A DNA stretch of 64,000 nt from Aquabacterium sp. CECT 9606 (GTDB lineage Bacteria > Pseudomonadota > Gammaproteobacteria > Burkholderiales > Burkholderiaceae_C), in the NCBI RefSeq assembly GCF_918741295.1, contig NZ_CAKKNB010000004.1:607830-671829 (forward strand), read 5' to 3'. This document shows, in pieces, positions 3,833-22,454 of the stretch. Both the position numbers and the translations under genes were made by a program. Every line of letters begins with the position of its first letter. Position 1 is the first letter of the stretch. The notes below the pieces were generated by a model, which searched no databases, was not told the origin of the DNA, and was given only the letters and a program-made list of their open reading frames with translations.

Positions 3833-5011
3833 ATGAAACGATCCCCCATGGTCTCCAAAGGCCGGTTCTCCCTGGCCGCTCTGGCGCTGATCCTGCACAC
3901 CGCGCTGCCGTCCGCGGCATGGGCCCACGCCGGTCCACATGGCGGCGTAGACACGTCGCCGGAGCCGAGTGGTCCCAGTCCCTTCACGGTGCTGGCCGAG
4001 GGGCTCTCGAATCCTCGGGGCATCGCTATCGACGAATCATCCGGGTCTCCCGTCGTCTACGTGACGGAAGCCGGCAACGGTGGCAAGGGCGGAGTCTGTC
4101 TAACCAGTGCCAATGGCGACTACGACGATTGCTATGGTCCGTCTGGCGCCATTGCCCGGGTGTCGAATGGCCAGGTTGAACGCGTCATCAAGAATCTGCC
4201 TTCCATCGCGGGGCCCAACGGTGGTTTCGCCATCGGACCTTCCCGGATCAAGCTGCTGGGTCCTTCAGTGCTCTTCACCGTGGCGAACTACGGGGATCCG
4301 GAACAACGTGGCCAACTGGCTTCGGCCGACAAGCGTTTCGGTCACGTGTTGTGGCATTCGCTGACGACACCGTCCATTTCCTTCGATGTGGCGAACCTGT
4401 CAGCCTTTGAAGACGCCCACAATCCCGATGGAGGCGAACTGGAGAGCAATCCTTCCGGCCTCGCTTTCTCCCGCCACGGCTTGATCGCCACCGATGCGGG
4501 CGCCAACGACGTGCTGAAGATCCGATTCGACGGTCAGGTCAGCGCGAGGTACGCATTTCCTGAACGGCACTTCCCAGCGCCGGCCGACCTGGGGCTACCT
4601 GCCGGTGCCACCTTGCCGGTGCAGTCCGTGCCGACGGCGGTGGTCGTCGGCCCCGATGGCGCGCATTTCGTGGCCGAGTTCACCGGTTTCCCTTATCCCA
4701 AGGGCGCGGCGCGGGTTTTCCGCTTCGGCGCCAGTGGCGCACCAACCGTGTTCGCCGACAACTTCTCGAACATCATCGACCTGACGTTTGGCCCTGACGG
4801 CAGCCTCTATGTCCTGGAGTTGGCGCACAACGGTCTGACATCGGGGGATGTGACCGGCGCTGTGACGCGGATCCTGCCAAACGGGACTCGGACCAAGGTG
4901 GCCTCGACGGGCCTGGCCTATCCCACCGCCATCGCTGTTGACCGCAGTGGGCGCATCTACGTGACCAACTACGGCACGCATGGCAGCAAGGCGCAGCTCG
5001 TTCGCTTTTGA
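3833..5011 (+). CDS. ScyD/ScyE-family secreted beta-propeller-like protein
   Basis: A protein of 392 residues with a cleavable signal peptide (MKRSPMVSKGRFSL, hydrophobic core, cleavage near AAWA-HA), so it acts in the periplasm or outside the cell. The mature part shows NHL/SMP-30-type repeats (LSNPRGIAIDESSGSPVVYV, FGPDGSLYVLE, YPTAIAVDRSGRIYVTNYG), typical of the ScyD/ScyE family first described in scytonemin clusters, where its exact role is unresolved. I chose ATG 3833 over upstream in-frame starts because it opens a good signal peptide and follows GAGGAAG. The ScyC-like gene starts 32 bases downstream, which supports a shared pathway. Confidence 0.82.
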   Translation: MKRSPMVSKGRFSLAALALILHTALPSAAWAHAGPHGGVDTSPEPSGPSPFTVLAEGLSNPRGIAIDESSGSPVVYVTEAGNGGKGGVCLTSANGDYDDCYGPSGAIARVSNGQVERVIKNLPSIAGPNGGFAIGPSRIKLLGPSVLFTVANYGDPEQRGQLASADKRFGHVLWHSLTTPSISFDVANLSAFEDAHNPDGGELESNPSGLAFSRHGLIATDAGANDVLKIRFDGQVSARYAFPERHFPAPADLGLPAGATLPVQSVPTAVVVGPDGAHFVAEFTGFPYPKGAARVFRFGASGAPTVFADNFSNIIDLTFGPDGSLYVLELAHNGLTSGDVTGAVTRILPNGTRTKVASTGLAYPTAIAVDRSGRIYVTNYGTHGSKAQLVRF

Positions 5012-5043
5012 GCGGCTGCAGCAGGCACGGTGGAGGAGGGTGC

Positions 5044-6033
5044 ATGGAAAAGCATACCGTGCCGGTGTCCGTTCACGTCGGGGTGGAGGTGGCCAGGGCC
5101 TTTTCCTTCCTGTCCGACCTGAATCATCTGTCGATGTGGACGCTGGGCACCCGGGTGCACGAGCAGATCGCGGCCAACACGTGGATTGGCGAGGTGACGG
5201 CATCCGGCCAACGCATCTACATGCGGGTTGCAACGCTGGCGCATCCCGAGGTGCCCATGCTCGAGTGGCAGTGTGGCAAGAGCATGGATCACCTGTCGGT
5301 GGTCCATCGGCTGTGCCTTCTGCCCGCCTCAGACGGCGGGGTGCACGTGCATTGGATCAGCTTCAAGCGTCCGGACGTGGAAACGACGTTGGGCCAGCAA
5401 GGCTTCGACGCCATCGCGCACCGGGCCGAGTTGCTGCGTCTCAAAGCGGTGTTGGAGCGGGATAACGGCCGGACCGCCCCTGTTGTCACACCCGAGCATT
5501 TGTTGGCCTGTTCGGTGTTCGTTGACGCGCCTGCCGCCCTGATCGCGGCTTACCTGGCCGACCTGGGTAACGCGGCCCACTGGGCAGCTCAATGGGAACA
5601 GGTGACGAGACCGGAAAAGCGTCGCTTGGCCGATGAGTCCGGGTCCTTGAAGGAGGGCTGTTTTCGCGATGCGTACAGCCGGGCGTTCAAGGCCTCATCC
5701 TCGGTGAACGACCATGCGGATTTGGGACAGGTGGTGCTGATGCGGACCACAGGCAGCGTGCCAGGCGCGGCATGTCCATGGTCTCCTCCGCTTCTTCAGG
5801 TGTTTGCTGTCCTGCCCTGTGCCCATGTGCTGGGTGTGCCGTCCGCGCAAGGTTGTGTCCTGCACCGCATCGCGCCAACGCGGCTGACTGGCGCCGCGCA
5901 TGGCGACGGGATCGCGGCGATGCGGGGCGAAAGCCTGGGCATCAAGCGGCGGGTAGAGATGCTGTCGGGGCGTTCCGAACGTTTCGCCGATGGCCTCAGT
6001 TACACCACCGCACTGGCGACAGCGCACGCCTGA
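5044..6033 (+). CDS. ScyC-like protein with two START/SRPBCC-like halves (putative cyclase)
   Basis: A protein of 329 residues starting at ATG 5044 behind a strong GGAGGAGGG site. It appears to contain two similar halves, each opening like a ligand-binding START/SRPBCC fold (VEVARAFSFLSDLNHLSMWT near residue 14; VDAPAALIAAYLADLGNAAHW near residue 165). Length, the MEK-T opening, a DLxxLxxWTL segment and an HWISF segment match my recollection of ScyC, the enzyme that cyclises and decarboxylates the indole-phenol intermediate in scytonemin synthesis. That comparison is from memory and needs a search. It sits between the ScyD/E-like and DsbA-like genes, the same company ScyC keeps in cyanobacteria. 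Otherwise it is an unassigned SRPBCC protein. Confidence 0.6.
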   Translation: MEKHTVPVSVHVGVEVARAFSFLSDLNHLSMWTLGTRVHEQIAANTWIGEVTASGQRIYMRVATLAHPEVPMLEWQCGKSMDHLSVVHRLCLLPASDGGVHVHWISFKRPDVETTLGQQGFDAIAHRAELLRLKAVLERDNGRTAPVVTPEHLLACSVFVDAPAALIAAYLADLGNAAHWAAQWEQVTRPEKRRLADESGSLKEGCFRDAYSRAFKASSSVNDHADLGQVVLMRTTGSVPGAACPWSPPLLQVFAVLPCAHVLGVPSAQGCVLHRIAPTRLTGAAHGDGIAAMRGESLGIKRRVEMLSGRSERFADGLSYTTALATAHA

Positions 6034-6088
6034 ACCGGGTCACCGGTCGGCGTTCGCTCTTCTTTTTCTTCTCCGTACAGAGGCTGTG

Positions 6089-6724
6089 ATGAATACAGAA
6101 GATGTTGTCGAAATCGAGGTTTTCTATGACTTGGTCTGCCCCTTCTGCCTGATTGGCAAGACGCAGCTCGATGCGGCGTTGGCAACATTGGGCCGCGAGG
6201 TGCGCGTGCGCTGGTCACCCTACCTGCTGGACCCCCAACTGCCCGAGGGCGGTTTGCCTTTCCAGCGCTACCACCGCATGAAATACGGCGAACGGGCACG
6301 GCCCATGCAGCAGCAGGTCGAACGCATCGGACAGCGCTTGGGCATCCCCTTCGATTTCCTGAAGTTGTCCCGCTACCCGCAAACGCTGGATGGCCATCGC
6401 GCGGTGCGTCTGGCCGCCGAGCATGGTCAGGCGGGCGCCATGGTCGAAGTGCTGCTGCGGGCTTATTTCCTGGAGGACCAGGACATCGGCCGGCCCGAGG
6501 TGCTGGCCGCGCTGGCCGAAAGCCGTTTGGGACTGCCCGGCCAAGCGTTCGCGCAGCGCCTGGCTTCCGACTGGCAGCGCGACGAGGTGCGCGCGGATCA
6601 ACGCCGATCCGTGCAACTGGGGGTCCGCTCTGTCCCGTCTTATCGGCTTGGCGGTCGGTACATCGAGCACACCGATGACCTTGTGAACATCCTGTCGGGC
6701 GCCTTGCCCGCCCCGACGCATTGA
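6089..6724 (+). CDS. DsbA/FrnE-family thiol-disulfide oxidoreductase
   Basis: A thioredoxin-fold protein of 211 residues with the active-site motif CPFC at residues 17-20 (VEIEVFYDLVCPFCLIG), a long helical insertion, and the cis-proline segment GVRSVPSYRL near the C-terminus. No signal peptide is present, as in FrnE-type cytoplasmic members (2-hydroxychromene-2-carboxylate isomerase/DsbA superfamily). ATG 6089 is chosen because upstream in-frame codons read into low-quality sequence. The stop overlaps the region where eboD begins. A DsbA-type gene also occurs in cyanobacterial scytonemin loci. A redox step or isomerisation in the pathway is an inference. Confidence 0.8.
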   Translation: MNTEDVVEIEVFYDLVCPFCLIGKTQLDAALATLGREVRVRWSPYLLDPQLPEGGLPFQRYHRMKYGERARPMQQQVERIGQRLGIPFDFLKLSRYPQTLDGHRAVRLAAEHGQAGAMVEVLLRAYFLEDQDIGRPEVLAALAESRLGLPGQAFAQRLASDWQRDEVRADQRRSVQLGVRSVPSYRLGGRYIEHTDDLVNILSGALPAPTH

Positions 6725-6735
6725 GTACCACCGAT

Positions 6736-8004
6736 ATGAGCTTCGTCCTGACGCAACGCACGTCCCAGTTCAACGGCATCGTCCCGCGCAGCCCGGAGGA
6801 GGCGCCGCATCACGTGGCCTTGCCTGCCCCCGACATGGTTGAGCAACGCTTCAGCGTGCCTTTCGATTTCCCTGTCTATTTCACCGATGGCATCTTGCGT
6901 GATCCGGACAACATGGTGCTGCGGCAAGCCATCAGCCGCAAGGAGCCGGGACGGCGTCACCGTTTCGCGGTCGTGCTCGACAGCCAAGTGGCGCAGGCCG
7001 ACCCGACCTTGGTATGCGGATTCCAGGCCTATGCCTGTCGGCATGCCGACGCCCTGGATCTGGTGGCTGCGCCGCTTCTGGTCAAGGGCGGCGAACTGAT
7101 CAAGAACGACCACCATGCCGTCCTGGGGCTTCAGACCATGCTGCACAAGCTTCGCATGGACCGCCACTCCTGCCTGGTCATCGTAGGGGGCGGCTCGGTG
7201 CTGGACATGGCCGGCTATGCCGCGGCCACCACGCACCGGGGCATCCGTGTGATCCGTGTGCCTACCACGGTGCTGGCGCAAAACGATTCGGGTGTTGGCG
7301 TGAAGACGGCGATCAACGCGTTCGGTGCCAAGAATTTCCTGGGGACCTTCACGCCGCCATTCGCGGTCATCAACGACCATGGCTTCATTGCCACGCTGCC
7401 GGAACGCGATCGCATCGCGGGCATGGCCGAGGCGGTGAAGGTGGCGGCGATCCGTGACGGAGGGTTTTTTGAATGGTTGGAAAAAAACGTCGAACGCTTG
7501 CGCAGCTTCGAGCCACAGGCCATGCGCTGGATGATCCGCCGCTGTGCGGAACTGCACTTGCGCCACATTGGGCAAGGCGGCGATCCCTTCGAGTTCGGCA
7601 GTGCCAGGCCCCTTGACTTTGGGCATTGGGCTGCGCACAAGCTGGAGAACCTCAGCGGCTACACGCTCACGCACGGTGAGGCGGTGGCCATCGGCCTGGC
7701 CCTCGACACCCGCTATGCCGTCATGACGGGCCTGCTTCCGGAGGTCCAGGGGGAACGGCTCCACCACTTGCTGGAGCGGCTCGGGTTCAAGTTGTGGCAC
7801 GAGGCCTTCGAGCTGCAGGATGCGCAAGGGCGGAGGCAGGTCATGGCCGGGCTCGCGGAGTTCCAGGAACACCTTGGCGGCGACCTGACCGTGACGATGC
7901 TGGACGCCATCGGCTGCGGGCGGGAAATCCATGAGGTTCGCCATCCCATGATGAATGCCTGCATCGATTGGCTGCGCGCGCGGAACCACGCACGATGCGC
8001 TTGA
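6736..8004 (+). CDS. eboD: EboD, 3-dehydroquinate synthase-like sugar-phosphate cyclase
   Basis: A 422-residue member of the dehydroquinate synthase fold. Visible are the NAD-binding GGGSVLDMAGYAAA, PTTVLAQNDSGVGVK, and the metal-site segments GMAEAVKVAAI, FGHWAAHKLE and LTHGEAVAIGL, which supply the Glu and His ligands. It belongs to the ebo version of the family, a divergent cyclase conserved with eboA-F and needed for precursor handling in scytonemin producers; its substrate is unknown. The frame is also open from TTG 6721, which would overlap dsbA, but ATG 6736 is the simpler start. It overlaps eboE by 10 bases. Confidence 0.88.
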   Translation: MSFVLTQRTSQFNGIVPRSPEEAPHHVALPAPDMVEQRFSVPFDFPVYFTDGILRDPDNMVLRQAISRKEPGRRHRFAVVLDSQVAQADPTLVCGFQAYACRHADALDLVAAPLLVKGGELIKNDHHAVLGLQTMLHKLRMDRHSCLVIVGGGSVLDMAGYAAATTHRGIRVIRVPTTVLAQNDSGVGVKTAINAFGAKNFLGTFTPPFAVINDHGFIATLPERDRIAGMAEAVKVAAIRDGGFFEWLEKNVERLRSFEPQAMRWMIRRCAELHLRHIGQGGDPFEFGSARPLDFGHWAAHKLENLSGYTLTHGEAVAIGLALDTRYAVMTGLLPEVQGERLHHLLERLGFKLWHEAFELQDAQGRRQVMAGLAEFQEHLGGDLTVTMLDAIGCGREIHEVRHPMMNACIDWLRARNHARCA

Positions 8005-9224
8005 ACAGCCCTTCGGGGGATCCAGGCCCGGTCCACCTGAGTTACTGCACCAATGTGCACCCGGGCGAAAGCTGGACCGACACCTTTCTGGCCTTGCGAG
8101 CGCATCTGCCTTTGGTGAAGGCCCGTGTCGCGCCAATCCAGCCCTTTGGCGTGGGGCTGCGCCTGTCGGCGCGGGCTGCCGAAGAGCTGGCGGTGCCCGA
8201 AACATTGGCGGCCTTTCAGGCGTTCCTGTCCGACCATGGACTCTACGTGTTCACCTTGAATGGCTTTCCTTATGGCGCCTTTCATGGCGAGCGCGTGAAG
8301 GACCAGGTCTACCTGCCGGACTGGCGGGCAACTGACCGGCTCAGGTATTCGGACCAACTGGCCGATCTGCTGGCGGCGCTGCTGCCGGAGGACCATGGCC
8401 TGGGCACGATCAGCACCGTGCCGGGCGGCTATCGGCCACACCTGGCGCACGAAAGCGATGGCGGCGCGCATGCCATGGCCGCCAACTTGCGGCGCCATGC
8501 GGTGAGGTTGAACCGCATTGCGCAAGACACCGGGCGCCACATCGTGCTCGCGTTGGAACCAGAACCTTCCTGCCTGCTGGAGACCAGCGCCGACACGGTG
8601 CGGTTCTTCGAATCGCATGTTCTGCACCCGGAATCTTTGGCCGACATGGCCGCCCGGTTGGGTGGTGACAAGCGGCTGGCGGAGCAAGTGCTCCGGACGC
8701 ACCTTGGGGTCTGCCTCGACGCCTGTCACGCTGCCGTCGAGTTCGAAGATCCGCTGTCTTGCCTCAAGGCACTGGAGGGCGCTGGCATCCGCATCGCCAA
8801 GGCACAGCTCAGTGTGGGGTTGCAGGCGGACGGTGCCGGTGCATTGCCCCGCCGTGCATTCGATGAACTGGACGATGCGGTTTACCTGCACCAGGTGGTC
8901 GAACGGCTGTCCGAAGATGGGATGTTGCGGCGTTTCGATGATCTGCCGCAAGCCTTGGCTGCGCTGGACGATGGCGATCTTGGCATGGCACGGGAATGGC
9001 GCGTTCATTTTCACGTGCCGGTCTGGTGCCATGACCTGGGGGCCTTCACGACGACCCAGCCCTTCCTGCAAGCGCTGCTCGCGCGCCACCGCGAACGGCC
9101 GATCGCACCGCATCTGGAAGTGGAAACCTACACGTGGAACGTGTTGCCGCCCGGATGGCGGACAAGCCCGCTGGACGAGGCCATCGCACGCGAACTCAAC
9201 TGGGTACTGGATCAACTGTCATGA
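7995..9224 (+). CDS. eboE: EboE, metabolite traffic protein (TIM-barrel, xylose isomerase-like)
   Basis: A 409-residue cytoplasmic protein of the EboE family. The signature opening HLSYCTNVHPGESW, NGFPYGAFHGERVKDQVYLPDW, LALEPEPSCLLE, and the closing segment VHFHVPVW...LEVETYTWNVLP are characteristic. The fold is an AP-endonuclease-2/xylose-isomerase-type barrel with Glu and His residues that could bind metal. The ebo locus has been linked to moving the scytonemin monomer to the periplasm; what EboE does chemically is not known. ATG 7995 lies inside the eboD tail, and the stop overlaps the eboC start (ATGA, 9221-9224), so the genes are translationally coupled. Confidence 0.88.
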   Translation: MRLNSPSGDPGPVHLSYCTNVHPGESWTDTFLALRAHLPLVKARVAPIQPFGVGLRLSARAAEELAVPETLAAFQAFLSDHGLYVFTLNGFPYGAFHGERVKDQVYLPDWRATDRLRYSDQLADLLAALLPEDHGLGTISTVPGGYRPHLAHESDGGAHAMAANLRRHAVRLNRIAQDTGRHIVLALEPEPSCLLETSADTVRFFESHVLHPESLADMAARLGGDKRLAEQVLRTHLGVCLDACHAAVEFEDPLSCLKALEGAGIRIAKAQLSVGLQADGAGALPRRAFDELDDAVYLHQVVERLSEDGMLRRFDDLPQALAALDDGDLGMAREWRVHFHVPVWCHDLGAFTTTQPFLQALLARHRERPIAPHLEVETYTWNVLPPGWRTSPLDEAIARELNWVLDQLS

Positions 9225-10084
9225 TGAAACGCAATGGGTGGCGCACCGCGCTGGAGTTGGGGCGGGTGTCCAACCTGCCCACGGTCTGGAGCAATGTGCT
9301 TGCGGGGATGGTGTTGTCGGGGCACGTGCAGGAATGGGGCATGACGCTTCGGCTGATGGCAGTCTTGTCGCTGATCTATGTGGCCGGCATGTACCTCAAT
9401 GATGCCTTCGACCGCGACATCGACCTGCGTGAGCGGCCAGAACGGCCCATTCCTTCCGGCAGGGTGTCAGCCCGCGCGGTGTTCGCCGCCGGGTACGGCA
9501 TGCTGGGTTTGGGCTTGGTGATGCTGGCCCCCATGGGTTGGCCCGCCTTCGCCTCGGGAGCATTGCTGACGGCAGTGGTCATTTACTACAACTACGATCA
9601 CAAGGCCAATCGCTTCAGCCCGCTGGTGATGGGGCTGTGCCGCATGCTCACCTACATCACGAGTGCCCTTGCGGCCACGGGCGGTGCCGTGCCGGACGCC
9701 GTCTGGCTCGGGGCGGTGGTGTTGCTGGCCTATTTGATGGGCTTGACCTACGTGGCCAAGCACGAACAAGCCGGCAAGGTGATTCGGGTCTGGCCCCTCG
9801 TGGGATTGCTTTGCCCCATGCTGGCTGTGCTCCTGGTCGCGCCGTTGGATGCGCAGACGACACTGTGTCTGCTGGCTTTCGGACTATGGACCGGTCATTG
9901 CCTGCGCATGGTTTTTTCATCCCAGCACCGCAATATCCGGCATGCCGTGGGCGGCTTCATCGCCGGCATTTCGCTGGCTGATTCATTGGCCATATCCGTC
10001 CTGGGCCTGTCGCCAGCTCTGGCAACGGCCGTGGCCGCATTCTTATTGACGCTTCTGCTGCAAAGGAAAATTTCCGGTACCTGA
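9221..10084 (+). CDS. eboC: EboC, UbiA-family membrane prenyltransferase
   Basis: A 287-residue integral membrane protein with about eight or nine hydrophobic segments. The first Asp-rich motif is present as NDAFDRDIDLRERPERPIPSG near residues 61-80, the usual prenyl-diphosphate/Mg site of UbiA enzymes, and the second region is YYNYDHKANRFSPLV. EboC is the only membrane protein of the ebo set and is thought to attach an isoprenoid or to act in membrane translocation of a metabolite; the substrate is unknown. The start overlaps the eboE stop. After this gene the operon pauses for a 284-bp AT-rich gap before the PrnB-like gene. Confidence 0.88.
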   Translation: MMKRNGWRTALELGRVSNLPTVWSNVLAGMVLSGHVQEWGMTLRLMAVLSLIYVAGMYLNDAFDRDIDLRERPERPIPSGRVSARAVFAAGYGMLGLGLVMLAPMGWPAFASGALLTAVVIYYNYDHKANRFSPLVMGLCRMLTYITSALAATGGAVPDAVWLGAVVLLAYLMGLTYVAKHEQAGKVIRVWPLVGLLCPMLAVLLVAPLDAQTTLCLLAFGLWTGHCLRMVFSSQHRNIRHAVGGFIAGISLADSLAISVLGLSPALATAVAAFLLTLLLQRKISGT

Positions 10085-10368
10085 CGTTCAATGCCAATCA
10101 TTTGTCGTCATATTCGCGCTTGTGGTCAATTTGCAAATATTTCTTGCTGACAAGCACAAGTTCATCGATCGTTGTTTTATTCATGAATTTGTCATGTTTG
10201 AAAATAACGCCGGATGTATACGAAATTTAAAGAAATTGAGTCGCTTGTTTATTCACAATAAACCACGCATCCTTAGAATTACAAAAAAATTATTCAGCCA
10301 GGGATTCTTTGTGCATAGACCTGCTGTCGCAGCAGTTTGATAAATCAATATTTCAATTGGGGGTGAAC
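10085..10368 (+). promoter_or_regulatory. AT-rich intergenic region upstream of the PrnB-like gene
   Basis: A 284-bp gap clearly richer in A/T than its surroundings. It holds a perfect 17-bp palindrome, GTTTATT-CAC-AATAAAC (10247-10263), and several AT-rich hexamers that could serve as -10 elements (for example TAGAAT in CCTTAGAATTAC), but no single convincing -35/-10 pair. A GGGGG ribosome site precedes ATG 10369. It probably carries the promoter and operator for prnB-like to trpC. A 72-codon frame across it has no ribosome site and is not called. Confidence 0.5.
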
Positions 10369-11544
10369 ATGATTTCACTGGATGCCAGCTGCTTCCACGA
10401 AAAGTGCTATTTCAACGTGGAAGCCATCCGCGCGCAGGACCCCTTGAATGCGGATTTGCGGTTAAGCAGTCTGCCGGCCATGAATGCCGCGAAAGATACT
10501 GACGGGCTCGTTCGTCTGCTTCAGTACTTGGTGCAGCAAACCCGGGAGTCGCATATTGACACCTCGGAGAAGGCGTTTGCCGCCATGCGAGACATCGGAA
10601 TTGTCCTGGGTTCTCTCAAACGGCACGGAGTGGAGCCCGTGCAGGCCGTGCCTGAGGTGGAGCAGCCCCTGGTGGACCTGGGGGCGGCGACGAACATGAT
10701 CCCGCGCGACACGGTCCACCACTACACGTCGTGGAACCCTGTTGGTGCCCGGCGGCGCAGTTACACGGGTGAGCCACAGGAGATTTGGTTGCAGGACGCG
10801 GTCGTTCGCGTGTTTCCCAGCCTGAGCGCCTCCTTGGCCATCAGCGATGTCCTGAGCACGATGTCTCCGCACGACGTGCGTTTTGCGCCCACGGTCGGCA
10901 TGTTGCATGAATCAGGCAGGACGATGGTGGACGCCATCGACTCGGTGACCGAGCGGGTCTCGCCTGTCTTTTTTGCCCAGGTGCTGCGTCCCTATTTCGA
11001 AGATGTCGTTGTTCGCGGCGAACGCTACTTGGGGCCCGCCGCGGCGCAGGCGCCCCTTTGGCTGGTGGATCTTTGCGTGTGGGCGTCTGACCGCAATCAG
11101 GCCGACTACAAGACCTTCCTGGTGGAGTCGGTGCACTACAGCCTGCCCTCATGGCGGGCGTTCTACCAGCGCCACTGCCATGATGTCTCGCTGGTGACCA
11201 AGGTGACCGAAGCACTCGATGCCTGCACGGGCGAGCCGGATGGCAATCTGGTGCGCAGCGCGACGAGCCTGACGGAACTCATGACTTTGCTCAAGGTATT
11301 CCGGGGGCGGCACATCGGCATCGCGCGCAAGGCTTACGCCGAGGAAGTGGCGCTGTATGCGCACGGCAGTGGCGGTGCGCCGGTGGCCTTGCTGCGCAAG
11401 ATCCTGGACTTGACGCGTGAGAACGAGCACCTGATGCGGGAACGCGCCAACGGCGCGCGCCGTGGCCAGGCCACTCAGGCGCCCACCGTCACGCACGAAG
11501 GCGGGCGCCGCGAGGAAGGCGTCGCCTGCGGGGAGGCTGCATGA
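10369..11544 (+). CDS. PrnB-like haem enzyme (indoleamine dioxygenase/PrnB superfamily)
   Basis: A 391-residue homologue of monodechloroaminopyrrolnitrin synthase PrnB, the haem enzyme that rearranges (chloro)tryptophan to a phenylpyrrole. The match to PrnB as I recall it is strong around residues 70-140 (AAMRDIG..LGSLKRHG, ATN..PRDT, WNP...RRSYTG). His315 in RHIGIARKAY aligns with the proximal haem ligand of PrnB, and the GSGG at 333-336 corresponds to the GTGG/GSGG loop of the IDO/TDO superfamily. A tail of about 40 residues extends past the domain. ATG 10369 follows GGGGG. The stop overlaps the monooxygenase start (ATGA). No tryptophan halogenase is nearby, so the substrate is probably tryptophan or a derivative rather than 7-chlorotryptophan (inference). 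Confidence 0.85.
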   Translation: MISLDASCFHEKCYFNVEAIRAQDPLNADLRLSSLPAMNAAKDTDGLVRLLQYLVQQTRESHIDTSEKAFAAMRDIGIVLGSLKRHGVEPVQAVPEVEQPLVDLGAATNMIPRDTVHHYTSWNPVGARRRSYTGEPQEIWLQDAVVRVFPSLSASLAISDVLSTMSPHDVRFAPTVGMLHESGRTMVDAIDSVTERVSPVFFAQVLRPYFEDVVVRGERYLGPAAAQAPLWLVDLCVWASDRNQADYKTFLVESVHYSLPSWRAFYQRHCHDVSLVTKVTEALDACTGEPDGNLVRSATSLTELMTLLKVFRGRHIGIARKAYAEEVALYAHGSGGAPVALLRKILDLTRENEHLMRERANGARRGQATQAPTVTHEGGRREEGVACGEAA

Positions 11545-13666: not shown

Positions 13667-14547
13667 ATATGTTCGACCCGCATGTCCACATGACATCCCG
13701 CACGACCGACGACTACCACGCAATGAATGCCGCGGGCGTGACCGTGGTCGTGGAGCCCGCATTCTGGATGGGACAGCCGCGCACCCACGTCGGCACCTTC
13801 GAGGACTATTTCCTGTCCCTGCTCGGATGGGAGCGCTTCAGGGCCAGCCAGTTCGGCATCCGCCACTACTGCACGCTGGGCCTCAATCCCAAGGAAACGA
13901 ACAACCCCGATGTGGCCGACGGTGTGATCGCCTTGCTCGACCACTACTTGGAGAAGGACGGTGTGGTGGCGGTCGGCGAGATCGGCTTCGACGATGAGAC
14001 GGAGGCGGAAGAAAAATACTTCCTGCTTCAGCTGGAGCTGGCGGTCAAGCATCAACTGCCCGTGCTGGTCCACACCCCTCACCGCGACAAGAAGGCCGGC
14101 ACCTTGCGCAGCCTGGCGATCATCCGCGAGAGCGGCATCCGCGACGAGCTGGTGCTCATCGACCACAACACCGAGGAAACGCTGCCCCTGGTGCTGGACA
14201 CCGGCTGCTGGGCCGGCCACTCCATCTATCCGGAGACCAAGATGGACGAGGCACGCATGGTGGCGCTGGTCAAGCAGTACGGGCCGGAACGAATCATCAT
14301 CAACAGCGCCGCCGACTGGGGCGTGAGCGATCCGCTCAAGGTGCCCAAGACCGCGCAGGCCATGCGCGATGCGGGCATCGCCGAGGCTGCGATCCGCGCC
14401 ATCGTGTGGGACAACCCGCTGGCTTTCTTCGCGCAAAGCGGCCGCCTCGACGAACAGGAAGCGGGGGTGGATGTGCTCATCGACCAGCGCCAGGCCTTCG
14501 AAGGCAATTCCGTGCTTCGTGGCCAGACCCCCGTGGTCCACGGCTGA
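13663..14547 (+). CDS. eboB: EboB, TatD-family metal-dependent hydrolase
   Basis: A 294-residue TIM-barrel hydrolase. The first metal-binding pair is DPHVHM near residues 5-10, followed by the Glu in VAVGEIGFDDETE, a His in VLVHTPHRDKK, a His in LIDHNTEETLPL, and the Asp region NSAADWG, in the order expected for TatD enzymes. TatD relatives are nucleases or metallohydrolases; the ebo version is not characterised and may hydrolyse a small metabolite. The start overlaps the eboA stop and the GTG start of eboF lies 13 bases beyond the stop. Confidence 0.87.
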   Translation: MNMFDPHVHMTSRTTDDYHAMNAAGVTVVVEPAFWMGQPRTHVGTFEDYFLSLLGWERFRASQFGIRHYCTLGLNPKETNNPDVADGVIALLDHYLEKDGVVAVGEIGFDDETEAEEKYFLLQLELAVKHQLPVLVHTPHRDKKAGTLRSLAIIRESGIRDELVLIDHNTEETLPLVLDTGCWAGHSIYPETKMDEARMVALVKQYGPERIIINSAADWGVSDPLKVPKTAQAMRDAGIAEAAIRAIVWDNPLAFFAQSGRLDEQEAGVDVLIDQRQAFEGNSVLRGQTPVVHG

Positions 14548-14560
14548 GGAGGGGCCCAGC

Positions 14561-15931
14561 GTGCAAAAGACCGTCGTGCTCAATGTCGTCGGGATGACAC
14601 CGGCCTTGCTGAGCCATGCGCCGAATCTGCGCGCTCTGGCCGAGCGAGGGGGGCTGAGGCCGCTGAGCACGGTCACCCCCGCGGTGACGTGCTCGGTGCA
14701 GGCCACCTTCCTCACGGGAAGGCCTCCCAGCGACCATGGCTGCGTGGCCAACGGCTGGTACTTCCGCGATCTGGCGGAGCCCCTGTTCTGGCGCCAGAAC
14801 AATGGCCTGATCCAGGGTGACAAAGTCTGGCACGAGGCCCGTCGGCGCAATCCAGACTTCACCTGTGCCAAGCTTTTCTGGTGGTACAACATGCACGCCG
14901 ACGTGGATTGGAGCGTGACGCCCCGGCCCATCTACAAGGCCGATGGCCGCAAGGTACCGGATTTCTACGCTTCGCCTTCGGGCTTGCACGGCGAGTTGCG
15001 CGCCAAGTTGGGTGACTTCCCGCTGTTTCGATTCTGGGGGCCCACGGCGGACATCATCTCCAGCCGCTGGATCGCGGACTGCGCCATGCATGTCTACGAC
15101 ACGCGCAAGCCCGCGCTCACCCTGGTCTACCTGCCGCACCTGGACTACAACCTGCAAAGGCTGGGTCCCGCCCATCCCGACATCCCTTCCGATGTGGCCG
15201 CCATCGACGAGGTTTGCGGCGACATCATCCGCAAGGTGGAGGCCGATGGCGCCCGCGTGATCGTCCTGTCGGAATATGGCATCACACCGGTCACCGGTGA
15301 CGTCGCCATCAACCGCGCCTTGCGGAATGCAGGCTGGCTGGCCACGCGCGATGAACAGGGCGAGGACAAGCTGGATCCCGGCGCATCGGATGCCTTCGCC
15401 CTGGTCGATCACCAGGTAGCGCACGTTTACGTGCGGCGTCCCGAGCTGGTGCCCAAGGTCAAAGCCCTGCTGGAGCAACTCGACGGCATCGAGCAGGTGC
15501 TCGATGCGGAGGGCAAGCGCGAGGCGGGGCTGGACCACGAGCGGTCCGGTGAGCTGGTGGCCATCAGCCGGAGTGACCGGTGGTTCAGCTACTACTTCTG
15601 GCTGGATGATGCGCGCGCACCGGACTTCGCGCGCACGGTCGACATCCACCGCAAGCCCGGCTACGACCCGGTCGAACTCTTCATCGACCCGGCCATCCGC
15701 CTGCCGAAGCTGACGCTGGCCTGGAAGCTGTTGCGCAAGTTCTGCGGCATGCGGACCTTGATGAACGTCATCCCGCTGGACGCATCGCTGGTGAAGGGAT
15801 CGCACGGCCGCCCCACCGATGACCTCGCCGCCGGCCCACTGATGATCAGTTCGCGCGCGGATCTGCTGCCCAAGGGCGTGGTGGCGGCGACTGCCGTCCA
15901 CGACCTGATCCTGGACCACCTGTTCACCTAG
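14561..15931 (+). CDS. eboF: EboF, alkaline phosphatase-superfamily phosphodiesterase
   Basis: A 456-residue member of the nucleotide pyrophosphatase/phosphodiesterase branch of the alkaline phosphatase fold. The probable nucleophile Thr lies in TPAVTCSVQATFLTG; metal-binding candidates are in LPHLDYNLQRLGP, VLSEYGITPV and VDHQVAHVYVR. The first metal-site Asp usual in the superfamily is not evident: the N-terminus reads VVLNVVGMTPALL. I chose GTG 14561 behind GAGGAGGGG because the open frame further upstream lies within eboB. Known from ebo loci in cyanobacteria, other proteobacteria and some algae; the substrate is unknown. trpE follows after 50 bases in the same direction. Confidence 0.85.
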   Translation: MQKTVVLNVVGMTPALLSHAPNLRALAERGGLRPLSTVTPAVTCSVQATFLTGRPPSDHGCVANGWYFRDLAEPLFWRQNNGLIQGDKVWHEARRRNPDFTCAKLFWWYNMHADVDWSVTPRPIYKADGRKVPDFYASPSGLHGELRAKLGDFPLFRFWGPTADIISSRWIADCAMHVYDTRKPALTLVYLPHLDYNLQRLGPAHPDIPSDVAAIDEVCGDIIRKVEADGARVIVLSEYGITPVTGDVAINRALRNAGWLATRDEQGEDKLDPGASDAFALVDHQVAHVYVRRPELVPKVKALLEQLDGIEQVLDAEGKREAGLDHERSGELVAISRSDRWFSYYFWLDDARAPDFARTVDIHRKPGYDPVELFIDPAIRLPKLTLAWKLLRKFCGMRTLMNVIPLDASLVKGSHGRPTDDLAAGPLMISSRADLLPKGVVAATAVHDLILDHLFT

Positions 15932-15981
15932 GCGCTTGATGCCGACCAGGTGCGCACCCATCACAGAGAGGACAAGCCGAG

Positions 15982-17493
15982 ATGCAACGTCAAGAGTTCG
16001 AACAATTCGCGGCCATGGGCTACAACCGGATCCCCATGAAAAGGGAGCTGGTGGCCGATTTCGAAACCGCGCTGAGCGCCTATGCCAAGTTGGCGCAGGG
16101 GTCTCATTCCTATCTGCTTGAGTCGGTGCCGGGACGGGCCGAAAACTGGGGGCGCTACTCGATCATAGGACTGCCCGGCAAGGTGGTGGTCAAGGTGCGG
16201 GGCCTGCGCATCCAGGTCGAGGATGAGGGGCGGATCTTGGAAGACGTGGAGGTGGATGACCCCCTGGTCTGGCTTCAGGAGTACGCCACACGCTTTCGTG
16301 TCGCACCTTCAAGCGGTGCCGTTCCCTTCGTGGGAGGACTGGTGGGCTACTTCGGCTACGACACCGTCGCCTACATCGAACCGGGGATGGTCCGCGCGCG
16401 CCGGGAAGATCCGCTGGATGTGCCCGACATCCTGCTGGTCGTGTCCGAGGAAGTCGTCGTGTTCGACAACCTGCGTGGCCAGCTTTCACTGGTGGTGCTG
16501 GCCGATCCTGCCGTCTCTGACGCCTACGAGCAGGCCCAGGCCAGGCTGGATAGCCTGGAGGCGGTATTCCGTGAGCCAATCAGCACCCCCTTGCGCGGTG
16601 GCCGCCGTGTGCCGTCGTCCGGCGGGCATGCCCACGCACTGGAGCAGTCGGCAACGGCCTGGTTCGACAAGGCCGATTTCGAGGCGGCGGTGCGGCGCAT
16701 CCAGCGCTACATCGTCGAAGGCGACGTGATGCAGGTGGTGCTGTCGCAGCGCATGTCCATGCCGGTCGAGGCGCAGCCGCTGGACATCTACCGCGCCCTG
16801 CGCAGCCTCAACCCCTCGCCTTACATGTTCTACATGGATCTGGGCGAGTGCCACGTCGTGGGCTCGTCGCCAGAGATCCTGGTGCGCTTGCGCGACGGCG
16901 AGGTCACCGTCAGGCCGATCGCCGGTACTCGGCGCAGGGGTGCGTCGGCGGCGGAGGATCGGATGCTGGAGCAGGATCTGCTCGCGGACCCGAAAGAGCG
17001 CGCCGAACACATCATGCTCATCGACCTGGGGCGCAACGATGTGGGGCGCATCAGCGAGGCAGGCAGCGTGAAGGTGACCGAGCGCATGCAGGTCGAGCAC
17101 TATTCGCATGTGATGCACATGGTCTCCAACGTGACGGGCGTCCTCAAACCGGGCACGTGCGCCATGGACGTCCTGCGCGCCACTTTCCCGGCGGGCACGG
17201 TGAGCGGGGCTCCCAAGGTGCGGGCGATGGAGATCATCCATGAGGTGGAGCCCGTCAAGCGGGGCATCTATGCGGGCGCCATCGGCTACCTCTCGTGGTC
17301 GGGGGCCCTGGACACCGCGATCGCGATCCGCACGGCGGTCGTCAAGGATGGCGTGCTGCACATACAAGCCGGTGCGGGCATCGTCGCCGACTCGGTGCCC
17401 GAGCTCGAATGGGAAGAGACGATGAACAAAGCCCGGGCCATGTTCAAGGCCGTGGCGGAGGCCGAAGGCGGTCCTCACCTTGCCGCGGCCTGA
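15982..17493 (+). CDS. trpE: Anthranilate synthase component I
   Basis: Converts chorismate with glutamine-derived ammonia to anthranilate, the first committed step to tryptophan. It is 503 residues, the normal length. The tryptophan feedback element is intact ([18 protein letters not shown] near residue 38), and the chorismate-binding domain carries [47 protein letters not shown] and GAGIVADS. A ribosome site (GAGAGGA) precedes ATG 15982. It sits 50 bases behind eboF and probably shares its transcript, so anthranilate supply is tied to the ebo/PrnB-like genes. Confidence 0.96.
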
Positions 17494-17534
17494 GCGCCCA
17501 GCACTTCTTCTTCAAGCAACCATCGGAGCACAAC

Positions 17535-18149
17535 ATGCTGTTGATGATCGATAACTACGATTCCTTCACCTATAACCTCGTGCAGTACTTCAGCGAGCTC
17601 GGGGCGCAGGTGCAGGTCCACCGCAATGACCGGATCACCGTGGACGACGTCCGGCGCCTGGCGCCCAGCCACATCGTGATCTCGCCCGGGCCGTGCAGCC
17701 CCAGCGAGGCTGGCGTGTCGCTGGATGTGGCACGTTATTTTGCAGGGCGTGTGCCCATCCTGGGGGTGTGCCTCGGGCACCAGACGCTGGGGCAGGTCTT
17801 CGGTGGCCGCGTGGTGAGGGCGCGCCGGCTCATGCATGGCAAGACGTCCATGATCCATCACCGGGGGACGGGGGTTTTTCAGGGCCTGCCGACACCCTTC
17901 GAGGCCACCCGCTACCACTCGCTGGCCGTCGACCGCGACAGCCTGCCGAGTTGCCTGGAGGTGACGGCGTGGACAGAGAGCCCCGACGGCAGCTTCGACG
18001 ACATCATGGGCCTGCGGCACCGAACCCTGCCGATCGAGGGGGTGCAGTTCCACCCTGAATCCCTGTTGTCCGAACATGGTCACGCGCTGCTGGGCAACTT
18101 CCTGCGTCCCCGTGTGCTGGTCGAGCGCGAACTGGCGGAGGCCTGCTGA
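17535..18149 (+). CDS. trpG: Anthranilate synthase component II (glutamine amidotransferase)
   Basis: The 204-residue class I glutamine amidotransferase subunit that feeds ammonia to TrpE. The opening is [18 protein letters not shown]. The oxyanion segment is [11 protein letters not shown], the nucleophile Cys is in [15 protein letters not shown], and the His-Glu pair is in [16 protein letters not shown] 17535 is the canonical family start; it lies 41 bases after trpE and 2 bases before trpD. Confidence 0.96.
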
Positions 18150-18151
18150 AC

Positions 18152-19189
18152 ATGGAAGCCGATGTGGATGTGAAAGCGGCCATCCAGGCCGTGGTGGCGC
18201 GGCGCGACCTGCCGCCGCACACGATGCAGCAGGTGATGCGGCAGGTGCTGGGGGGGCAGGCCTCGCCTGCACAGATCGGCGCGCTGCTGGTCGGCTTGCG
18301 CATGAAGGGCGAGTCCGTCGGCGAACTGACCGCCGCAGCCCAGGTCATGCGCGCCTTCGCACGCGGTCTGCGCACCGAGCATCCCCACCTGGTGGACACC
18401 TGCGGCACGGGGGGGGACGGTGCCCACATCTTCAATGTGTCGACCGCCTGCGCCTTCGTGGCCGCGGCCGGTGGGGCCGTCGTGGCCAAGCATGGCAACC
18501 GGTCGATCTCCAGCCGCAGCGGCAGCGCCGACCTGCTTGAAGCCGCGGGTGCCCGCCTGGACCTGCCCGACGCCAGCCTGAGCGCCTGCCTTCAGGAAAT
18601 GGGCATCGCTTTCCTGTTCGCGCCCACCCACCATCCCGCCATGGCCCAAGTGGCCGGTCCGCGTCGCGAGTTGGGTGGTCGCAGTCTGTTCAATCTGCTG
18701 GGCCCGCTGAGCAACCCCGCTGGCGCGCGACGCCAGGTGATCGGCGTGTTCGACGCCGCATGGCTGAGCCCCATGGCCGAGGTGTTGCGTGAGCTGGGCA
18801 GCGAGCACGTGATGGTGGTCCATGCGCAAGACGGCCTGGACGAGATCAGCGTGGCGGTGGCCACCGACGTGGTCGAGCTCCGCGATGGGAGCCTCCACCG
18901 CTACAGAATCGCTCCGGAGACCTTTGGCATGCCGCGCTCCTTGCTGTCGACGCTGGTGGTCGATGGCGCGCCGGACAGCCTGCGCATCATCCGCGAGGTC
19001 TTCGCCAACCGACCCGGGCCGGCTCGGGACATCGTTGTGCTCAACGCTGGAGCCGCACTGTATGTCGCCGGCATCGAGCCCACCCTGGAGGCCGGCGTGC
19101 ATCGCGCCGACCAATTGGTGGCCGATGGCAGCGCGGGCCTGCGTTTCGATGCCTTCATCCAATTCACGCAGCGAGTCACCCCCTCATGA
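18152..19189 (+). CDS. trpD: Anthranilate phosphoribosyltransferase
   Basis: Transfers phosphoribose from PRPP to anthranilate. It is 345 residues, the normal family length. The PRPP/Mg-binding motif [15 protein letters not shown] and the anthranilate-site block [19 protein letters not shown] are intact, as are [18 protein letters not shown] and the GLDEIS loop. It is in a tight operon: 2 bases after trpG and 7 bases before trpC. Confidence 0.96.
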
Positions 19190-19196
19190 GGACGCC

Positions 19197-20045
19197 ATGA
19201 TTCCCACGACCCATCCCATGCCGCCCCCGCCCAAAGACCTGCTCCAGACCATCTTGAAGACCAAGTTCGAGGAGGTCGCCGCGCGCAGCCAACTGGTCAG
19301 CAGCGAGTCGCTGCGCAGGCAGGCCTTGTCGATGCCTCCTGCCCGCGACTTCCTGGCGGCCATCAGCGCGCGGCTCGGTGCTGGTCAGGCCGCGGTCATT
19401 GCCGAGATCAAGCGAGCATCGCCCAGCCGGGGCATGCTGCGCGAGCCATTCGATCCGGTCGCGATCGCCCAGTCCTATGCCCTGCATGGTGCGGCCTGTC
19501 TGTCGGTGCTGACGGACGAACGCTACTTCTCGGGCAGTGCCAGTTTCCTGCGGCAGGCCAGGGCGGCGTGTACCTTGCCTGTCCTGCGCAAGGACTTCAT
19601 CGTCGATCCCTACCAGCTCTACGAGGCCAGGGCCATGGAGGCGGACTGCGTGCTGCTCATCGCGGCGGCCTTGTCCGATGCCCGGATGGCCGCGCTCGCT
19701 GACGAGGCGCAGGAACTGGGCATGGCCGTTCTGCTGGAAGTGCACAACATGCGCGAACTGGAACGGGCGCTGCGCATTCCCACGCCGCTCATTGGCATCA
19801 ACAACCGCAACCTGGTCACTTTCGAGATCCGCCTGGACACGACCTTGCAATTGCGCAAGTCCGTGCCGCCCGACCGCATCCTCGTGACGGAAAGCGGCGT
19901 CAGCACGCCCAGCTATGTGGCCATGATGCGCTCACAGGGCGTGCACAGTTTCCTCGTCGGTGAGGCCTTCATGAAGGCCCCGGACCCTGGCGAGGCCTTG
20001 ACGCGGCTGTTCGGGGACATGGCCGGGGGGCCCCCGGCACATTGA
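19197..20045 (+). CDS. trpC: Indole-3-glycerol-phosphate synthase
   Basis: A TIM-barrel enzyme of 282 residues that closes the indole ring. Key segments are [57 protein letters not shown] and VTESGV, carrying the catalytic Lys and Glu residues. It is monofunctional: no phosphoribosylanthranilate isomerase (TrpF) domain is fused, and no trpF lies in the window. ATG 19197 follows GAGGACGCC. The gene ends 5 bases from the convergent trpA, with no obvious terminator between. Confidence 0.95.
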
Positions 20046-20050
20046 CATGG

Positions 20051-20854
20051 CTACAGGGGCTGATCCAGCGCCTGGCGGATGTCGGCGATCAAGCGCCGGG
20101 CCGCCTCCACTGCTTCTTCCCGGGGCACCGCGGCCATCTCCTGGATCACCTTGCTGCCGATGATCACGGCGTCCGCCACGGAGGCTACCGCGCGTGCCGT
20201 CTGCGCATCCCGGATACCGAAGCCCACGCCCATGGGCAGCTTGACGTGCCGGCGGATCAGGGCCAGCCGCTGAGCCACCTCGCCCGTGTCGATGTGCGAG
20301 GCGCCCGTCACTCCCTTGAGCGAGACGTAGTAGCTGAAGCCGCGGCCCATGCGGCCAACCTCTTTCATGCGTGCCTCGGTCGAGGTGGGGGCCAGCAGGA
20401 AGACCATGTCAAGGCCCACGCGTTCCAGTGCTGCATTCAAGGCCTCGGCTTCCTGCGGAGGGTAGTCGACCACGATGACGCCATCGACACCCGCTTGGGC
20501 GGCGGCCGCCGCGAAGGGCTCGATGCCCATGTGCTCGATGGGATTGGCATAGCCCATCAGCACCACCGGCGTGCGTGGGTCGGCCTGCCGGAAATGGTGC
20601 ACCATGGCCAGTACGTCCTCCAGGCCGATGTCGAAGGCCAGTGCCCGTTCGCAGGCCCGCTGGATCACGGGGCCCTCAGCCATGGGGTCGGAAAAAGGCA
20701 CGCCCAGTTCCAGCACATCGGCGCCCGCTTGGACCAGTGCGTGCATCAGGGGCACGGTGAGTGAAGGGTGCGGGTCGCCCGCGGTGAAGAAGGGGATCAG
20801 TCCCTTGCGGTGACGCCTGCGCAGCGCGTCGAAGGTCTCGGCGATTCTGGACAT
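20051..20854 (-). CDS. trpA: Tryptophan synthase alpha subunit
   Basis: Cleaves indole-3-glycerol phosphate to indole and glyceraldehyde-3-phosphate and channels indole to TrpB. It is 267 residues. The catalytic Glu is in [20 protein letters not shown], the catalytic Asp in VIVVDYPP, and the loop in SLKGVTGAS; the phosphate site is GFGIRD. ATG 20854 lies 4 bases after the trpB stop, so the two are co-transcribed. In-frame sequence further upstream lies inside trpB and is excluded. Confidence 0.96.
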
Positions 20855-20858
20855 GGTG

Positions 20859-22142
20859 TCACTCCTTCGTGTCGGCTTGAGTCTGTTGAGCCAGCGCCAG
20901 CCGTTCGGACACGGTGTGCATGTCCTTGTCTCCCCGCCCTGACAGATTGGCCAGGACGATGTGCTGGGGGGACAGTGTGCTGGCGAGTTTGGCGGCATGG
21001 GCGAGCGCGTGGCTCGATTCGAGGGCGGGGATGATGCCTTCGAGCCGGCAGCAGTCGTGGAAAGCCTGCAGGGCCTCGTCATCGGTGACCGTGACATAGC
21101 GCGCGCGGCCTGTGTCCTTGAGCCAGGCATGTTCGGGCCCCACGGCGGGATAGTCCAGCCCGGCCGACACCGAGTGCGTGTCGATGACCTGTCCCTTCGG
21201 ATCTTGCAGCAGGTAGGTTCGGTTGCCGTGCAGCACCCCGGGAGAGCCCGCCGTCAGTGAGGCCGCGTGCCGCCCGGTGTCGAGGCCTTCGCCGCCGGCT
21301 TCCACGCCCACCAGCGACACCGACTCGTCGCCGATGTAGGGGTAGAAGATGCCCATGGCGTTGGAGCCTCCGCCCACGCAGGCCACCACGTGGTCGGGTT
21401 GGCGGCCGGTCAACTCGGGCATCTGTGTCAGGCATTCCTGCCCGATGACGGACTGGAAGTCGCGCACCATCATGGGATAGGGATGAGGCCCCGCCACGGT
21501 GCCGATGATGTAGAAGGTGTCCTCGACGTTCGTGACCCAGTCGCGCATGGCCTCGTTGAGGGCGTCCTTCAAGGTGCGTGAACCGGATTCGACCGGCACG
21601 ACCTGCGCGCCGAGCAACTGCATGCGGTAGACGTTCTGCACCTGACGGCGCACGTCGTCCGACCCCATGTAGACCACGCACTTCAAACCGAAACGTGCAC
21701 AGATCGTCGCGGTGGCGACGCCATGCTGGCCCGCGCCCGTCTCGGCGATGATGCGCGTCTTGCCCATGTGCCTGGCCAGCAGCGCCTGGCCGATCACATT
21801 GTTGATCTTGTGCGCGCCCGTGTGGTTGAGGTCTTCGCGCTTGAAGTAGATGCGGGCGCCACCCATCTGGTCCGACCATCGCCGGGCGTGGTAGATCGGC
21901 GACGGGCGGCCGACGAAATGGCGAAGTTCGGTGCGGAACTCGTTCAGAAAATCGGGTTCGTCGCGCAGGCGCTCATAAGCCTGCTGGAGCTGCTCCAGCG
22001 CGTGGACCAGCGTCTCGGACACGAAGGTGCCACCGTAGGGCCCGAAGTGGCCCTGGGCATCGGGGTGCTGGTGCTGTTGATTGCGGTGCAGGGCTTTCGC
22101 GGCATGCGCGGCGCCCAGTCCTGGGTTGGCCTGGTCTGTCAT
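20859..22142 (-). CDS. trpB: Tryptophan synthase beta subunit
   Basis: The PLP enzyme that joins indole and serine to make tryptophan. It is 427 residues; the family core begins at [14 protein letters not shown], after a slightly long N-terminal stretch of about 32 residues. The PLP lysine lies in [15 protein letters not shown], the glycine-rich phosphate loop in GGGSNAMG, and the family motif SGRGDKD is near the C-terminus. It is read towards trpA, on the strand opposite to trpEGDC. A probable attenuator leader with tandem Trp codons lies in the 312-bp gap upstream. Confidence 0.96.
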
Positions 22143-22155: not shown

Positions 22156-22416
22156 CAAAGAAAACGGATGGCGCCAAGGCGTGGCGCACCGCTGCGCCGC
22201 ACGGTGAGTGCGCTGCAGGCGGGTCGCCAGCTTGGAGGGAGGGCGCGTCAGCGGACGCGCGAGGTCGACGCCGTGAGTGGCGTCACGCGCAGCATCGTTC
22301 GCGGCGCGTCTGTTCGAGCCACCATTCGAAACGGCCGGAGGCGCGGCTTCTTTGCGAAGAGCGAACGGGCATGACCATGAAACGGTGTGGAGTCGGAGGG
22401 AGGTTTTCCCATTCTA
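22156..22416 (-). promoter_or_regulatory. Putative trp attenuator leader upstream of trpBA
   Basis: The gap between trpB and the maoC-type gene holds, in order on the minus strand: a promoter-like TTGCAG-N16-TAGAAT (22438-22411), a short leader frame with two adjacent Trp codons, a hairpin overlapping its stop (22267-22284, GACGCC/GGCGTC), a second hairpin (22243-22260, GCGCGTC/GACGCGC), a third (22183-22198, GGCGCA/TGCGCC), and a terminator-like stem (22166-22190) followed by a T-rich run (22157-22164). The hairpins share complementary arms, so they can be mutually exclusive, as in classical transcription attenuation. The functional claim is inferred. Confidence 0.6.
22283..22372 (-). CDS. 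Putative tryptophan leader peptide (trpL-like)
   Basis: A 29-residue frame, ATG 22372 (alternatively 22378) to TGA 22285-22283, with consecutive TGG TGG codons (22324-22319; peptide segment GRFEWWLEQTRRERCC). Its stop lies within the first hairpin of the leader and about 140 bases before trpB. A ribosome pausing at the Trp codons would block hairpins downstream. There is no strong ribosome site, and the 5' untranslated part would be only about 30 bases if TAGAAT is the -10 box. The main alternative is that the frame is fortuitous. Confidence 0.5.
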   Translation of the reverse strand: MPVRSSQRSRASGRFEWWLEQTRRERCCA

Positions 22417-22454
22417 GAAGGAGCGCCGTGACCTGCAAGTGACAAATCGTGAGA

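Follow-up and report, generated by a model that had tools for sequence, protein, structure and literature searches.

Which compound would be made and exported by a gene block that joins scytonemin-type ebo, scy and trp genes to a haem enzyme of the ring-rearranging PrnB family? We addressed this question for a 64,000-nucleotide stretch of Aquabacterium sp. CECT 9606 (NCBI RefSeq assembly GCF_918741295.1, contig NZ_CAKKNB010000004.1, positions 607,830 to 671,829 of the forward strand), referred to here as the window, in which open reading frame (ORF) listing and family scans delimit a 20.7-kb block of 19 genes (about 1800–22473). We favour, with a probability of roughly 0.6, the reading that this block is a self-sufficient biosynthesis-and-export island, its product being an exported pigment or defence compound derived from an aminophenylpyrrole. 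The genes named in an original prediction, made from sequence alone, were all found with the order, strands and coordinates it gave; its list lacked the two leftmost members, an AraC-family regulator and an NmrA-like protein. The features are as follows, in window coordinates.

1800–22473, no strand: extent absent from the congeners that have the empty site (flank comparison)
1802–2770, minus: AraC-family regulator with a cupin domain (Pfam Cupin_6, HTH_18), divergent from the NmrA gene
2865–3776, plus: NmrA-like NAD(P)-binding protein (Pfam NmrA)
3833–5011, plus: ScyD/ScyE-family protein, NHL/beta-propeller (NF033206, NHL; ratio of nonsynonymous to synonymous substitution rates, dN/dS, 0.071)
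5044–6033, plus: distant relative of the ScyC cyclase/decarboxylase (NF035924, full length)
6089–6724, plus: DsbA-family protein, FrnE type (PF01323; CPFC motif)
6721–8004, plus: eboD, 3-dehydroquinate-synthase-like (NF004852), start codon uncertain
7995–9224, plus: eboE, TIM-barrel metabolite traffic protein (NF035939)
9221–10084, plus: eboC-like UbiA-family membrane protein, NDxxDxxxD motif (PF01040, NF035940, alignment)
10085–10368, plus: AT-rich intergenic region that probably contains the promoter for the prnB-ebo-trp half (blocks conserved in the congener)
10369–11544, plus: PrnB-like histidine-ligated haem enzyme (PF08933; PDB 2v7i)
11541–12833, plus: flavin monooxygenase (FMO), PRK07538/PhzS type (NF005720; 2rgj/3c96)
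12830–13666, plus: eboA (NF035938, NF035937)
13663–14547, plus: eboB, TatD-like hydrolase (PF01026)
14537–15931, plus: eboF, nucleotide pyrophosphatase/phosphodiesterase (PF01663), start uncertain
15982–17493, plus: trpE, second copy (TIGR00564, 559 bits)
17535–18149, plus: trpG, second copy (TIGR00566)
18152–19189, plus: trpD, second copy (TIGR01245, 373 bits)
19197–20045, plus: trpC, second copy (PF00218, two copies in the genome)
20051–20854, minus: trpA, second copy (TIGR00262, 230 bits)
20859–22142, minus: trpB, second copy (TIGR00263, 632 bits)
22283–22378, minus: putative tryptophan leader peptide ahead of trpB, with Trp codons in tandem, conserved in the congener

The block is retained or lost whole, and its gene arrangement is beyond chance. 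In the three congeners in which the empty site was read (G1128, G1144 and G1141), left flank is followed by right flank with 31, 49 and 87 bp between them; the left flank runs to 1799 or 1755 (tRNA-Asp and a terminator) and the right resumes at 22474 or 22482, the left flank of G1144 being short because its contig starts inside tRNA-Asp. In a fourth congener, G1145, with contamination estimated at 9%, the 19 genes are all found in the same order on a 100-kb contig, at 84% nucleotide identity; the downstream flank on that contig is syntenic (83.8–88%), and 22380–22968, at the right border, has no counterpart there. PrnB matches occur in 2 of the 42 genus genomes (our own counted) and are missing from the other 40, while DNA of the downstream flank is matched in 37 of the 42, for the most part weakly (64–72% over parts), in what may be paralogues. 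No integrase is found among the 19 block genes. Beside the left border, at 1044–1755, a tRNA-Ala-Glu-Asp array is doubled in tandem; it is likewise doubled in G1128 and G1141 and single in G1145.

The block genes are under purifying selection. Compared with G1145, dN/dS lies between 0.055 and 0.264 for 18 of them, and the aligned spans, from which some stretches are left out (the final 26 residues of EboA, for instance), contain no stop codons. Synonymous rates (dS) of 0.33–0.85 in the block resemble those of four flank genes (0.35–0.85), which fits descent from a common ancestor with later losses, transfer being possible as well.

Within the block, genes are packed as tightly as originally predicted: with the starts chosen here, 4-base overlaps join PrnB to FMO, FMO to EboA, EboA to EboB and EboE to EboC, and the sole large gap is the 284 bp (36% GC) preceding prnB. 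The prnB-FMO pair sits between eboDEC and eboABF. This arrangement bears on the suggestion that the ebo/scy/trp half and the PrnB-FMO half merely share a locus and serve separate products, which we judge quite unlikely: the AT-rich gap between eboC and prnB and the occurrence of relatives of each half without the other would suit it, whereas the interposed position of the pair, its overlap into eboA and the retention or loss of the block in one piece, conserved whole, argue against it. When the prnB and araC-nmrA intergenic regions were compared for a shared operator, no 9-mer was common to both; the latter region (2771–2864, 94 bp, 35% GC) is identical to G1145 at 88 of 94 positions, as compared to 84% for the whole block.

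The haem enzyme at the centre of the block belongs to the PrnB family by its PF08933 score (128 bits, cut-off 27) and its match to the solved PrnB structure (PDB 2v7i, E 4e-55), and is 36–37% identical to PrnB of Burkholderia pyrrocinia and Azotobacter. Its pocket offers a clue to the substrate. Val117 of Pseudomonas fluorescens PrnB is described as corresponding to Tyr104 of a Flavobacteriales enzyme, FbPrnB, in which this tyrosine shrinks the pocket and fixes the pose of the indole (PMC11791213). In a 20-row alignment that position is Tyr in 17 rows (those of the window, of its congener and of 15 further relatives), Val in two, for which the annotation places halogenases next door, and Leu in the remaining one (L002); the proximal His and loop Ser are retained in all 20. 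By sequence position, the window enzyme shares its Tyr pocket with FbPrnB and two Bacteroidota homologues. From the Tyr pocket we take unchlorinated L-tryptophan to be the probable substrate, which would give 3-(2-aminophenyl)pyrrole first; this is a hint rather than a proof. In marinoquinoline-type aminophenylpyrrole clusters a PrnB homologue acts on unchlorinated tryptophan. The compound itself, 3-(2'-aminophenyl)-pyrrole, is described as a bacterial metabolite isolated from Rapidithrix thailandica (PMC2630848).

PrnB family membership would also suit a pathway to pyrrolnitrin or a chlorinated relative. Neither the halogenases PrnA and PrnC nor the Rieske enzyme PrnD were found in the block by Pfam (by NCBIfam for TrpA), the rest of the genome not having been searched for halogenases, and a 27-bit Pfam match to Trp_halogenase lies inside the FMO. 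Since halogenase and Rieske genes both adjoin PrnB in B. pyrrocinia and Azotobacter, and since the pocket position is Tyr rather than Val, we regard a pyrrolnitrin-type product as highly improbable.

The original prediction placed a PrnB-type enzyme and a monooxygenase at the centre of the block. Both are there, to which we add that their nearest relatives found are an actinobacterial pair. The FMO scores 467 bits against NF005720 (cut-off 400), and its best solved relatives are 2rgj and 3c96 (241 bits), which we take to be PhzS. To place the pair, we read neighbourhoods of 15–29 kb around 17 outside PrnB relatives (4 plasmid records read of 6 matching, and 13 genome-contig loci). An FMO homologue adjoins PrnB in 10 of the 17 (L007, L011–L018, L023); AraC and NmrA homologues (42–43% and 39–41% identical to the window proteins) lie within 6 kb of PrnB in five (L011–L015); and a DsbA homologue, 35–37% identical, lies downstream of the FMO gene in one (L011). 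Matches to ScyC, ScyD/E, ebo or Trp proteins at E 1e-4 were found in none of these neighbourhoods. Some loci have ketosynthase, HpaB, MFS, DoxX or berberine-bridge-type neighbours.

In the PrnB tree, where long branches are flagged elsewhere, the window and G1145 proteins fall within a Streptomyces/Kitasatospora clade (support 95/97 and 97/95), and adjacency to an FMO gene changes only twice along the tree (mean of 6.5 after shuffling; none of 500 shuffles as low). The FMO tree has no starred branch linking the window pair to others. The order in which the two enzymes act bears on the product: the FMO might act first, on tryptophan or indole, with PrnB rearranging the hydroxylated substrate to an aminophenylpyrrole that bears a hydroxyl group or to a phenoxazinone-like pigment. 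The 4-base overlap between the two genes and the HpaB-type hydroxylase gene that precedes PrnB in Streptomyces loci are consistent with this order, which we nevertheless consider unlikely.

We then turned to the supply of tryptophan. The trp genes of the block are extra copies, since a second set exists elsewhere in the genome: a trpE-G-D-C set on another contig (C2) and a trpF-B-A set 7–10 kb to the left of the window. Block and C2 copies are 54% (trpE), 57% (trpG), 52% (trpD) and 59% (trpC) identical, block copies and those left of the window 58% (trpA) and 75% (trpB), and trpF is single in the genome. Upstream of the block trpB lies a 31-residue frame that has Trp codons in tandem, is conserved in G1145 and looks like a tryptophan attenuation leader; a small ORF with two adjacent Trp codons arose by chance in 14 of 1000 mononucleotide shuffles, and the 317 bp that precede the other trpE contain no such frame.

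The remaining genes ally the block with scytonemin clusters to differing degrees. The original prediction expected family searches to place them in Ebo, Scy and PrnB families; ScyD/E, EboE and PrnB indeed score over their cut-offs, while ScyC and EboC prove distant and stay under their equivalog cut-offs. The ScyD/E protein, whose N-terminus looks signal-like by eye, scores 302 bits (cut-off 80) against NF033206, a model that cannot separate ScyD from ScyE. Nostoc scyD is described as dispensable and not under purifying selection, whereas deletion of scyE abolishes scytonemin (PMC4870267); the purifying selection on the window protein (dN/dS 0.071) fits a ScyE-like role. The ScyC relative aligns with model positions 1–311 of 312 at 140 bits (NF035924, cut-off 400) and is thus a distant relative rather than an equivalog. 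It matched no solved structure at E 0.001 and none of 72,556 plasmid records, and among 399 genomes of the order the ScyC model matched our own genome only; ScyC is described, from a published BLAST search, in cyanobacteria and Methylocaldum marinum only (PMC9796282).

The DsbA protein (PF01323, 105 bits; best solved relative FrnE, 5cp1, 81 bits) shows, on visual inspection starting at the ATG at 6089, no N-terminal export sequence, as is described for the Nostoc DsbA-like protein NpR1268 (PMC2726228). Family scores and homology to six-gene ebo loci such as L054–L057 indicate that the eboA-F set is complete: EboD scores 545 bits (NF004852, cut-off 333), EboE 444 bits (NF035939, cut-off 250), the EboC-like protein 117 bits (NF035940, under its cut-off of 250, aligned over nearly the whole model), EboA 136 bits for the domain (NF035938, cut-off 50) and 119 bits for the family (NF035937, under its cut-off of 320), EboB 59 bits (as TatD, PF01026, cut-off 27) and EboF 196 bits (PF01663, cut-off 23). 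In Nostoc, Ebo is described as required for moving the scytonemin monomer into the periplasm (PMC6282210).

Could the block nevertheless make scytonemin or a close relative, with ScyA and ScyB activities supplied from elsewhere? The original prediction noted that scyA and scyB were missing from the window, and no equivalog of either was found in the genome. Among the three thiamine pyrophosphate (TPP) enzymes found there, two reach 221 and 224 bits against the ScyA model (cut-off 1020), and the third is an acetolactate synthase for which ScyA is not among the 25 best models (the lowest at 310 bits). The single ELFV (Glu/Leu/Phe/Val-type) dehydrogenase found reaches 73 bits for ScyB (cut-off 600) and is glutamate-dehydrogenase-like, its best model (500 bits) also being under its cut-off of 750. 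On contig C2, at about 228–233 kb (L033, 7752–13162), four adjacent genes encode a TPP enzyme of the acetolactate synthase/ScyA superfamily, an FAD reductase-like protein, an amine oxidase that resembles VioA (93 bits against a cut-off of 600) and an OmpW-like protein. A scytonemin pathway would account for the ScyC-type, ScyD/E, DsbA, ebo and trp genes common to both regions, and the TPP enzyme beside the VioA-like oxidase (ScyA model, 224 bits) would be a candidate for the missing step. Such a pathway leaves PrnB and the FMO unexplained, however, and draws on a gene from a different contig; together with ScyA and ScyB scores far under their cut-offs, and ScyC under its own, these points make it very unlikely.

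How rare is the combination? PF08933 searches of 399 order genomes recovered our own genome and two further members that score above the window protein (552 and 340 bits). Despite these scores both were set aside as separate branches rather than close kin, one (L002) being 25% identical to the window PrnB over 238 residues and the other (L003) not matching it at E 1e-5. With the window PrnB protein as query, 398 phylum genomes yielded our own and two 23%-identical matches, and 344 family genomes our own and one 20-bit match (G1295) that we take as chance. EboE occurs in 15 of 369 class genomes, our own counted. Twenty outside ebo loci (15 stretches from 14 class genomes and 5 plasmids of 48 matching records) gave no match to PrnB, FMO, ScyC, ScyD/E, DsbA, AraC, NmrA or Trp proteins at E 1e-4; since several contigs end near the ebo genes (L072 is 5.6 kb, and in L073 the EboE match is under the cut-off), missing neighbours there are partly unseen. 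In one such class genome (L066, 11211–14238), cytochrome c and glucose/sorbosone-dehydrogenase-like genes lie between eboDEC and eboABF. On a plasmid of Streptomyces sp. AMCC400023 (L102), ebo genes adjoin a cluster for an aromatic type II polyketide, and some 13 kb beyond lies a ScyD/E gene. The Mycetohabitans and Streptomyces plasmid contexts fit the idea of ebo as a movable kit. We found no paper in the open-licence literature that joins PrnB with a scytonemin or ebo cluster. Elsewhere in the window (50588–63016, minus strand), a 4142-residue hybrid polyketide synthase–nonribosomal peptide synthetase has AMP-binding, ketosynthase, acyltransferase, class III aminotransferase and condensation domains.

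Together, these findings suggest a pathway in which the extra TrpE-G-D-C-A-B enzymes would raise tryptophan, TrpF being drawn from the housekeeping set; the PrnB-like enzyme would convert unchlorinated L-tryptophan to 3-(2-aminophenyl)pyrrole; the PhzS-like FMO would hydroxylate or oxidise this intermediate; and the ScyC relative may, as a guess, close or decarboxylate a further ring. EboA-F would then move an intermediate to the periplasm, where a ScyE-type protein would be needed for the final form, as in scytonemin; we infer both the export role and the ScyE-type requirement by analogy with Nostoc, and the product and function of the block from its gene content. On a broader and more tentative view, which we hold possible at somewhat less than even odds, Ebo and ScyE form a general export kit with a swappable core, in which an actinobacterial-type PrnB-FMO pair replaced scyA/scyB and a ScyC-family enzyme was recruited to cyclise aminophenylpyrrole, giving a new class of exported compounds outside cyanobacteria.

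Several points weigh against the aminophenylpyrrole pathway. Firstly, isolated PrnB is described as giving no product in vitro, with activity only in the presence of crude Pseudomonas extract, and the Tyr-type Flavobacteriales enzyme as binding 7-chlorotryptophan as well (PMC11791213); the lack of an in vitro product makes the substrate proposed here a guess from one pocket position. Secondly, the family model scores of ScyC, EboC and EboA are under their cut-offs, an AlphaFold model of the ScyC relative built from two sequences failed (predicted local distance difference test score, pLDDT, 32.6), and the ScyD/ScyE ambiguity matters in that scyD deletion is described as leaving scytonemin intact (PMC4870267). 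Thirdly, FMO relatives 40–47% identical are also present in plasmid records that gave no match to PrnB, the family being large, so that only adjacency is telling; the AraC/NmrA pair, considered as a mark of PrnB clusters, is weakened by its presence in a Nonomuraea record that is not among the six PrnB-matching ones; and the gap upstream of prnB holds one promoter-like site where 0.9 are expected by chance.

For genetic work on what Ebo carries and by which mechanism, this block offers a small locus outside cyanobacteria that brings its own supply of substrate. It also provides a PrnB homologue together with its likely partner, which is of use given the described inactivity of isolated PrnB in vitro (PMC11791213), and adds a new distant ScyC relative.

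Set beside known systems, the block is best filed as a variant of ebo/scytonemin-type clusters, in what appears to be a new combination. With the scytonemin cluster of Nostoc punctiforme (scyABCDEF, ebo, trp, dsbA), as it is described (PMC6282210, PMC2726228, PMC4870267), it has in common a ScyC-type and a ScyD/E-family protein, a DsbA-like protein devoid of an export sequence, ebo genes and extra aromatic amino acid genes; it differs in its central PrnB-like and PhzS-like enzymes, in a ScyC under the equivalog cut-off and in the lack of a tyrosinase among its 19 genes. It resembles the pyrrolnitrin cluster prnABCD in its ring-rearranging haem enzyme of the PrnB family and departs from it in the Tyr pocket and the added ebo, scy and trp genes; in the plasmid records of B. 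pyrrocinia and Azotobacter, PrnB is flanked by a halogenase gene on either side, and a Rieske gene follows. Another proteobacterial cluster with a full ebo set, the EDB cluster of P. fluorescens NZI7, is described as linked to nematode deterrence (PMC6282210). For the ebo genes, a plasmid locus of Mycetohabitans endofungorum (L054) is the closest of the 20 by eboB (82%), eboD (64%) and, marginally, eboF (67%), though not by eboE (51%); unlike the block, it has upstream genes for a LodA/GoxA oxidase, a Trp-halogenase-like FAD enzyme and a PF12902 ferritin-like protein and no match to PrnB, FMO or ScyC. For the core, the counterparts are the actinobacterial PrnB-FMO pairs of Streptomyces, Kitasatospora, Nocardia, Glycomyces and Saccharopolyspora (PrnB 43–53%, FMO 42–51% identical), five of which have a divergent AraC/NmrA pair nearby, as in the block.

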